NCBI GenBank assembly: GCA_018698915.1
Contig: JABIPN010000017.1
Coordinates: 1-44,491 of the forward strand
DNA: 44,491 nt
Direction of reading: 5' to 3'
Source of the DNA: Candidatus Woesearchaeota archaeon
Lineage (GTDB): Archaea; Nanobdellota; Nanobdellia; UBA10117; ARS21
Of the stretch, positions 42,140-44,383 are shown one piece after another. The translations under genes and the position numbers were made by a program. Under the pieces are notes generated by a model, which ran no database searches, was not told the DNA's origin, and worked only from the letters and a program-made list of their open reading frames with translations. Position 1 is the first letter of the stretch. Every line of letters starts with the position of its first letter.

Positions 42140-42214
42140 GGTCCGATGGTCTAGCCTGGTTATGACGTCCCCTTGACGTGGGGAAGATCCCAAGTTCGAA
42201 TCTTGGTCGGGCCA
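42140..42214 (+). tRNA. tRNA-Val (GAC)
   Basis: Acceptor GGTCCGA/TCGGGCC, anticodon stem-loop TCCCC-TTGACGT-GGGGA, T-arm CAAGTTCGAATCTTG. Confidence 0.93.
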
Positions 42215-42258
42215 TTTTATCAAAACATTCTTAAAGCAAAACTAAAACTCAAAATCAA

Positions 42259-42333
42259 GGGCGGTTAGCTCAGTCCGGTCAGAGCGCTTCGCTGGCAGCG
42301 GAGAGGCCCCGAGTTCGAATCTCGGCCCGTCCA
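42259..42333 (+). tRNA. tRNA-Ala (GGC)
   Basis: GGGCGGT...CTTCG-CTGGCAG-CGGAG...CCGAGTTCGAATCTCGG-CCCGTCC-A; G3:U70 alanine identity pair present. Confidence 0.93.
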
Positions 42334-42683: not shown

Positions 42684-42959
42684 TTATTGCTTTACAACCT
42701 TGTCCTTTGCCAAACTATTTTCAATAGAATTCAATTTTGTTTTTATGTTTGTAATTTCAGTTGTAGAAATCATATCATCAAACTTCTCAGGGATTCCTCC
42801 TCCACGAGTTTGAATATCTGCAAGCAATCTCCTTGCTTCTTGAATCTTTCCAGAAAGTTGACCTTTGAATGTCAATTTCCGACTTACATCAGCCAAGCTT
42901 CTATATTTATCAAAATCTTCCTCAATTTGAATAACTAATTTTCTAAGGTTATGTGCCAT
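42684..42959 (-). CDS. Hypothetical, predicted helical protein (91 aa)
   Basis: MAHNLRKLVIQIEEDFDKYRSLADVSRKL...; an ORF on the opposite strand (42687-42938) looks less protein-like. Confidence 0.55.
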   Translation of the reverse strand: MAHNLRKLVIQIEEDFDKYRSLADVSRKLTFKGQLSGKIQEARRLLADIQTRGGGIPEKFDDMISTTEITNIKTKLNSIENSLAKDKVVKQ

Positions 42960-42993: not shown

Positions 42994-43383
42994 TTAGACA
43001 GAGGCTAGTTGACGGCTCAACTTAATGAATTCATTTATGTGTTCTGCAGAAGTATAAACTTCAAGATTCTCTTCAAGAAGCATACTCATAAATAAGTAAA
43101 CATCATTACCGTGTCTTGACAAAATACCTATCCGATAATTCTCAGGCTTGTTATCCAGCCACAATCTAAAGTTAAATTCATCAATAGTAGGGACATTTAC
43201 GTTATTCGTATAGATCTTTGGGATCAGTGGCTCAAATTCCCAAGTAATATCAGAACCAACATACGTTGGATGGGCAAAGTACAATCCAGCTTCAGAATCC
43301 ATCAAATCATCATGTAATCTGTCCTCCAAAGGATTAAAGTCAATAATTTCTAGCTCGCACTCGTCCAACGAAATTTTTTCCAT
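42994..43383 (-). CDS. Hypothetical acidic protein (about 129 aa)
   Basis: MEKISLDECELEIIDFNPLEDRLHDD...; internal ATG 43383 preferred. Confidence 0.6.
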   Translation of the reverse strand: MEKISLDECELEIIDFNPLEDRLHDDLMDSEAGLYFAHPTYVGSDITWEFEPLIPKIYTNNVNVPTIDEFNFRLWLDNKPENYRIGILSRHGNDVYLFMSMLLEENLEVYTSAEHINEFIKLSRQLASV

Positions 43384-43413: not shown

Positions 43414-43518
43414 CTATTTCTTTGACTTCTTAAAGCAACCACACAGCTTAGATTTGTGTTTTAAACAACCAATCACCTTGTGATCTCCACAACCACAAAT
43501 AAAACATTTCTTATGCAT
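43414..43518 (-). CDS. 34-aa Cys/His/Lys-rich microprotein, candidate metal-binding (not in supplied ORF track)
   Basis: Hand translation MHKKCFICGCGDHKVIGCLKHKSKLCGCFKKSKK*; ATG overlaps the last 8 nt of the SOD gene. Confidence 0.55.
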   Translation of the reverse strand: MHKKCFICGCGDHKVIGCLKHKSKLCGCFKKSKK

Positions 43519-44107
43519 TGTACCTATCCTCAACAACAGACCAATCAATTACGTTGTAAAAATTCTTAACATATTCAGGTCGTCGATTTTGATACTGCAA
43601 ATAATAAGCATGTTCCCAAACATCCAAACATAAAATAGGAATTGATGAAATTTTATTTACATCCATAAAACAATTATCTTGATTTGAAGTAGAATATATT
43701 TCTAAAGAACCATCTTTTTTCTTTCCAAGCCAAGCCCAACCAGAACCAAATTGAGTTGCAGCTGCGTTTGAAAATTCCTCAACAAACTTATCATACGATC
43801 CAAAGTTTTCTGAAATAATTGCTTTAAATTCAGAAGAGATTTTATTTGAACTCGGTTTATTCAAGGCTTCAAAAAAGAAATTATGATTCCACCATCCGCC
43901 ACCATTATTTCTCAAACCAGCATTTTTAGATGCACGCTTGAATACAACTTTTGGATTATTACTTCGGATTTTTAACGCATCCAAAATCACAGTAGTCTTA
44001 TTAGTATAAGCAGCATGATGTTTATTGTAATGAACATTCATTGTTTCTTTATCAATATACGGTTCCAAATCTCCAAGAGCATAATTTAATTTAATCTGTT
44101 TTACCAT
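43511..44107 (-). CDS. sodA: Superoxide dismutase (Fe/Mn family)
   Basis: HYNKHHAAYTNKT; GWWNHNFFFEAL; GSGWAWLG; LDVWEHAYYLQYQNRRPEYVKNFYNVIDW. Confidence 0.95.
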   Translation of the reverse strand: MVKQIKLNYALGDLEPYIDKETMNVHYNKHHAAYTNKTTVILDALKIRSNNPKVVFKRASKNAGLRNNGGGWWNHNFFFEALNKPSSNKISSEFKAIISENFGSYDKFVEEFSNAAATQFGSGWAWLGKKKDGSLEIYSTSNQDNCFMDVNKISSIPILCLDVWEHAYYLQYQNRRPEYVKNFYNVIDWSVVEDRYNA

Positions 44108-44188
44108 TCCAGTACTAATTGAAATAATTATATAAGACTATCCTACTTGAAGCGTTATGTTTATAAACTCAAATGAGGGAGATAAATT

Positions 44189-44262
44189 GGCGAGGTAGCT
44201 CAGTATGGCAGAGCGTCCGTTTCATGAGCGGAAAGTCGGGGGTTCAAATCCCCCTCTCGCCA
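44189..44262 (+). tRNA. tRNA with CAU anticodon (elongator Met, or Ile2; not initiator-like)
   Basis: GGCGAGG/TCTCGCC acceptor, TCCGT-TTCATGA-GCGGA anticodon stem-loop, T-arm GGGGGTTCAAATCCCCC. Confidence 0.9.
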
Positions 44263-44308
44263 TTGAGTTGCGAAACTCTTAAAAAGCAAAAATAAAACCA
44301 AATCTCAT

Positions 44309-44382
44309 GCATCCATAGCTCAGTCTGGTAGAGCACCTGCCTTGTAAGCAGGGGGCCGCGGGTTCAAATCCCTCTGGGTGCA
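44309..44382 (+). tRNA. tRNA-Thr (UGU)
   Basis: GCATCCA/TGGGTGC acceptor, CCTGC-CTTGTAA-GCAGG anticodon stem-loop, T-arm GCGGGTTCAAATCCCTC. Confidence 0.9.
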
Positions 44383-44383
44383 T

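Follow-up and report, generated by a model that had tools for sequence, protein, structure and literature searches.

The minus strand of the window, by which we mean the whole 44,491-nt stretch of DNA analyzed here, raises the question of what is encoded by a very short open reading frame that begins within the end of a superoxide dismutase (SOD) gene, and whether its product has anything to do with that enzyme. The SOD gene (43511..44107, minus strand) encodes a 198-aa Fe/Mn superoxide dismutase matching Pfam Sod_Fe_C and Sod_Fe_N, and ends with AAT GCA TAA. The 34-aa frame, read from the window at 43518-43414 on the same strand, opens with ATG CAT AAG and closes with TAG; its sequence and homologues identify it as a coding sequence (43414..43518, minus strand) for the microprotein MHKKCFICGCGDHKVIGCLKHKSKLCGCFKKSKK. 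At the junction the minus strand reads ...TACAATGCATAAGAAATGT..., and ATGCATAA (43511..43518, minus strand) contains both the SOD stop and the microprotein ATG, an 8-nt overlap found in identical arrangement in the sister species. A GAGG within the SOD gene (43528..43531, minus strand), 9 nt before the ATG and also present in the sister species, is a possible Shine-Dalgarno sequence. A T run follows the microprotein stop codon in both species, on which basis SOD and microprotein could share one short transcript. The window peptide has six Cys and two His in the exact spacing C5..C8.C10..H13....C18..H21....C26.C28, forming a 24-residue core (43435..43506, minus strand) with eight candidate metal ligands in the pattern CxxCxCxxHx4CxxHx4CxC. 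A previous sequence-only reading of this DNA had reported the same sequence, coordinates, six Cys and overlap, and all were confirmed.

The spacing pattern did not occur in 200,000 shuffles of the window peptide. Among 378 genomes from the class, a search for it at the DNA level hit 3, in each case a homologue; a reversed-pattern control hit none of the 378. The peptide of the sister species (JAAZWY01, 'Nanoarchaeota archaeon isolate bin102p') is 88% identical to that of the window and has the same overlap, and that of the sister genus (genome G002), 43 aa in length, shows 56% identity in the portion common to both. Between window and sister species, dN was 0.070 and dS 0.39 for the microprotein, values resting on only 11 differences, and 0.026 and 0.62 for the SOD. 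Across the family, the core dN/dS was approximately 0.07 when pooled over 265 close, non-independent pairs, indicating strongly purifying selection, with third codon positions changing most. A lack of conservation, a noncoding pattern of substitution and broken frames in sister genomes were each looked for and none was observed. The frame is thus a real protein-coding gene, far beyond chance, and the earlier proposal of a real, conserved microprotein of metal-binding type is supported. That the frame is spurious and untranslated, as its very short length might suggest, is virtually impossible in the face of conservation across phyla, frames that remain intact and this dN/dS.

The gene overlap, present in both sequenced species of the window's genus, had led to the suggestion that the microprotein is a partner of the Fe/Mn-SOD, acting as metallochaperone, metal sensor or redox buffer. 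The sister genus argues otherwise, since the microprotein there lies at 166 kb of the contig and the SOD at 181 kb, 14.6 kb apart; a tRNA-Arg gene lies 37 bp from the start of the microprotein, and no such frame stands behind the SOD. Linkage to SOD is therefore not a family feature. No SOD was found near the microprotein at any of 95 homologous loci outside the window's genus (stretches of approximately 1 to 8 kb), and no such frame follows the SOD in 27 more distant relatives of the class. Conservation downstream of the SOD gene, which the sequence-only reading had proposed to look for, was thus seen in the sister species only, and both the SOD neighborhood and the 8-nt overlap are confined to the window's genus. 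A partnership with SOD is largely refuted by these results and must be considered very improbable; the position behind SOD is a local accident that gives no clue to function. In this genus, the microprotein would probably be translated off the SOD transcript by way of the overlap with the SOD stop. The overlap is an expression arrangement rather than a functional partnership, because relatives of the microprotein sit behind other, unrelated genes. The case illustrates how a functional link that does not exist may be read into the overlap of two neighboring genes.

Approximately 85,000 genomes were scanned for the exact spacing, yielding at least 119 stretches and at least 94 further members of the family, nearly all of them ORFs of approximately 31-36 aa from Nitrososphaeria (Thaumarchaeota). 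Among the matches listed were short similar ORFs in Nitrosopumilus, Nitrosarchaeum, Nitrosotenuis, Nitrosopelagicus, Nitrosotalea, Cenarchaeum and other Thaumarchaeota. The set analyzed comprised 98 loci with the exact pattern, which encode 95 distinct peptides, and took in the window, the sister species twice and the sister genus; median length was 34 aa, and the family consensus is KKC[IV][IL]CGCkDH[KR]L.GC.[RK]H.sKkCSC. Mean net charge over the family is +5.6, and that of the window peptide is +9. In profile searches, 133 of 250 genomes from the order of ammonia-oxidizing archaea (AOA) contained the family. A stricter profile picked it up in 35 of 250 from the AOA phylum, and it was detected too in 3 of 6 genomes from a phylum of small-genome archaea and in three genomes elsewhere in the window's own phylum (G441, G187 and G212). 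The family is widespread in AOA and occasional in other small-genome archaea. One copy per genome was found in 38 of 39 genomes in profile searches; the remaining genome, Nitrosotalea sp. TS (G457), has identical peptides on two contigs (L071 and L108), possibly an assembly duplicate.

Family members matched no Pfam, NCBIfam or PDB family, and literature searches returned no description of the family. The window peptide belongs to a previously unnamed family of strongly basic archaeal zinc-finger-type microproteins of approximately 31-36 aa. Few cells on Earth are as abundant as AOA, and a strongly conserved, usually single-copy gene of approximately 31-36 codons that occurs in many of them and is missed by the family libraries used constitutes an annotation gap in these organisms and lends itself very well to NMR and biochemical work. 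Several candidate members were rejected: weak matches in other genomes of the class (L004-L010, E 0.02-0.14) proved on translation to be wrong or broken frames or parts of larger proteins of no relation, Cys/His repeats of low complexity found by the pattern scan of genomes were dismissed, and none of five viral-contig pattern matches carries a family member. An alignment search of viral contigs likewise gave no relative.

The window copy resembles Thaumarchaeal copies (up to 72%) about as closely as it does that of its own sister genus (53-56%), and among small-genome archaea the family turns up only here and there. Transfer from Thaumarchaea to small-genome archaea is plausible from these similarities, and repeated loss may instead underlie the scattered copies; the 24 informative core residues are too few for a tree that would reliably separate the two. 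The scattered copies present a testable case of gene sharing.

Among the 97 loci with a start codon, an upstream open frame is overlapped in 50, most of which share one inherited arrangement. In 40 Nitrosopumilaceae-type loci (including L051, L054 and L057), there is a 4-nt overlap between the start codon and the stop codon of an upstream 125-aa protein that is predicted to be helical and whose representative has no Pfam or NCBIfam match. This protein is a candidate partner of the microprotein in its AOA lineage. The separate settings in which overlap occurs are the 125-aa gene, SOD, a coiled-coil gene (L158 and L244) and a membrane gene (L240). Neighbors in other lineages are EgtB, a DUF5652 and CRS1_YhbY operon, and, as judged by eye, a small membrane protein and an oxidoreductase-like protein. 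In five marine AOA loci (L069, L079, L095, L107 and L143), an EgtB-type ergothioneine gene, whose representative matches TIGR03440, lies directly downstream, followed in most of them by what appears by eye to be an EgtD-like methyltransferase gene.

The invariance of the eight ligand positions in the exact-pattern set was imposed by the search and proves nothing alone, but profile searches also found variants. In a DPANN genus (G187 and G212; loci L240 and L241), the final CxC is HxH, with both C26 and C28 replaced by His. Three genomes found with the AOA profile retain C5, C8, C10, H13, C18 and H21, and the last Cys pair is swapped for a His a few residues on. The changes from Cys to His, with the last pair varying as a unit, point to metal ligands, and we infer that the six Cys and two His are candidate ligands of a metal-binding protein. 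Beyond these positions, G9, G17, D12, hydrophobic residues at 7, 15 and 16, and a basic residue at 24 are conserved, suggestive of a folded rather than a flexible chain. The eight residues would most likely hold two Zn2+ in one compact domain. A knuckle-type partition (C5 C8 H13 C18 with C10 H21 C26 C28) and a cross-brace (C5 C8 C18 H21 with C10 H13 C26 C28) are candidates that fit, as are linear partitions.

We then compared the family with known small metal-binding proteins. A CPxCG-like motif (CPxCG, CxxCG or CPxCx; CFICG in the window) is present in 98 of 98 analyzed members, as is a second Cys/His pair, spaced by 2-3 residues and located 7-40 residues away (C18xxH21 in the window), and the median length of 34 aa is well within the limit of <100 aa. 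All analyzed members accord with the published sequence definition of the archaeal CPxCG-related small zinc-finger proteins (PMC2253796), with which they also share the character of a small stand-alone domain, many of them missed in annotation. DNA or RNA is the suspected target of this class (PMC2253796). It includes Brz of Halobacterium (PMC2253796) and HVO_0758 and HVO_2753 of Haloferax (PMC10716476, PMC6562870), and some members have been shown to affect transcription, swarming or the formation of biofilm (PMC10716476, PMC6562870). Several Haloferax CPxCG proteins are reported not to bind zinc (PMC11241148). The present family differs from the class in being only approximately 31-36 aa long, in its eight ligands with fixed tight spacing, in having no recognizable sequence family, and in occurring not in haloarchaea but in AOA and archaea with small genomes.

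The CCHC zinc knuckle (Pfam zf-CCHC; Lin28 is a cellular example) is resembled in the exact CX2CX4HX4C spacing, the Gly after the second Cys, the hydrophobic residues after the first Cys and the basic surroundings. This spacing occurs in 98 of 98 members, where it is forced by the scan pattern, and is retained also in the variants found by profile. The family nonetheless has four more ligands (C10, H21, C26 and C28), interleaved with and following those of the knuckle, and the likeness may be convergent. No Pfam knuckle model matched significantly, the best being zf-CCHC_4 (E 2.1, 2 of 29 members), and neither phmmer with the window peptide nor the family profile against PDB chains gave a match. 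AlphaFold models were uninformative, being of low confidence (pLDDT 65.7 and 68.7), and fold searches with them returned as best hits Lin28A zinc knuckles (E 7.5) and a C2H2 finger (E 6.6), which are non-significant and mutually inconsistent and were not used as evidence. The likeness of one member to nucleocapsid zinc knuckles (phmmer, best E 0.35) was set aside as a mere echo of the motif. The C-x2-H-x4-C-x2-H-x4-C-x-C arrangement also resembles the second half of the AN1 zinc finger, but the family has no long loop after the first Cys pair, and none of 29 members matched Pfam zf-AN1 at E up to 10.

The basic charge, the CX2CX4HX4C spacing and the agreement with the CPxCG class definition all point to a nucleic-acid type. 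The reading we favor is a compact two-site Zn microprotein predicted to bind nucleic acid, probably RNA, and we hold it with about even confidence; nucleic-acid binding by itself, the most likely job, is likewise predicted at close to an even chance. The basic, zinc-knuckle-spaced first half would probably contact the nucleic acid, most likely RNA, with the microprotein, single-copy and stand-alone, serving in regulation or RNP assembly. The sequence-only reading had offered as its second choice a zinc-knuckle binder unrelated to SOD. This fits best: its independence of SOD holds, and its nucleic-acid binding keeps the standing of a prediction. No conserved neighbor points to RNA or DNA work. 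A more specific and speculative version, which we consider unlikely, is a widespread RNA-binding regulator of AOA whose 24-residue core would rank with the smallest two-zinc folds; DPANN archaea would have obtained it on several occasions from Thaumarchaeal neighbors or hosts, and its expression would have been maintained by overlapping stop and start codons behind unrelated genes.

Two other functions would account for some of these features, and each is possible yet doubtful. The microprotein could be a protein-protein zinc module, that is, an accessory subunit of the ribosome, RNA polymerase or another complex in which zinc serves only for folding. Archaeal ribosomes and polymerases do contain small zinc proteins, and a single-copy, strongly conserved, very small protein without a fixed operon partner would suit such a role. 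Against this, no PDB chain matches (the entries may lack a solved ribosome or polymerase from Nitrososphaeria), and at the sensitivity of the profile the family is not seen throughout the AOA order and has a patchy distribution in DPANN. A metallothionein-like metal or redox buffer, handling for example copper or zinc in ammonia oxidizers, is a similarly distant prospect. The 24-residue core packs six Cys and two His, its CxC and CGC motifs are typical of soft-metal binding, and its main home is AOA, which are copper-dependent and possess copper-rich enzymes. Prokaryotic metallothioneins of the SmtA/BmtA type are likewise very short and rich in Cys, with some His, but the family is basic and glycine-anchored and has fewer Cys. 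A defined fold is suggested by the conserved glycines, hydrophobics and Asp12, the strong positive charge and the exact number of eight ligand positions; no metallothionein profile of Pfam or NCBIfam matched, and the family also occurs in DPANN and is unlinked to metal genes in the neighborhoods read.

Downstream of the microprotein in the window are two small ORFs (42684-42959 and 42994-43383, minus strand), which adjoin it only in the window's genus; Pfam matched neither the 129-aa ORF nor the version of the 91-aa ORF found in the sister species. The whole cluster is flanked by two pairs of tRNA genes, Val/Ala and Met/Thr (42140-42333 and 44188-44383 of the window).
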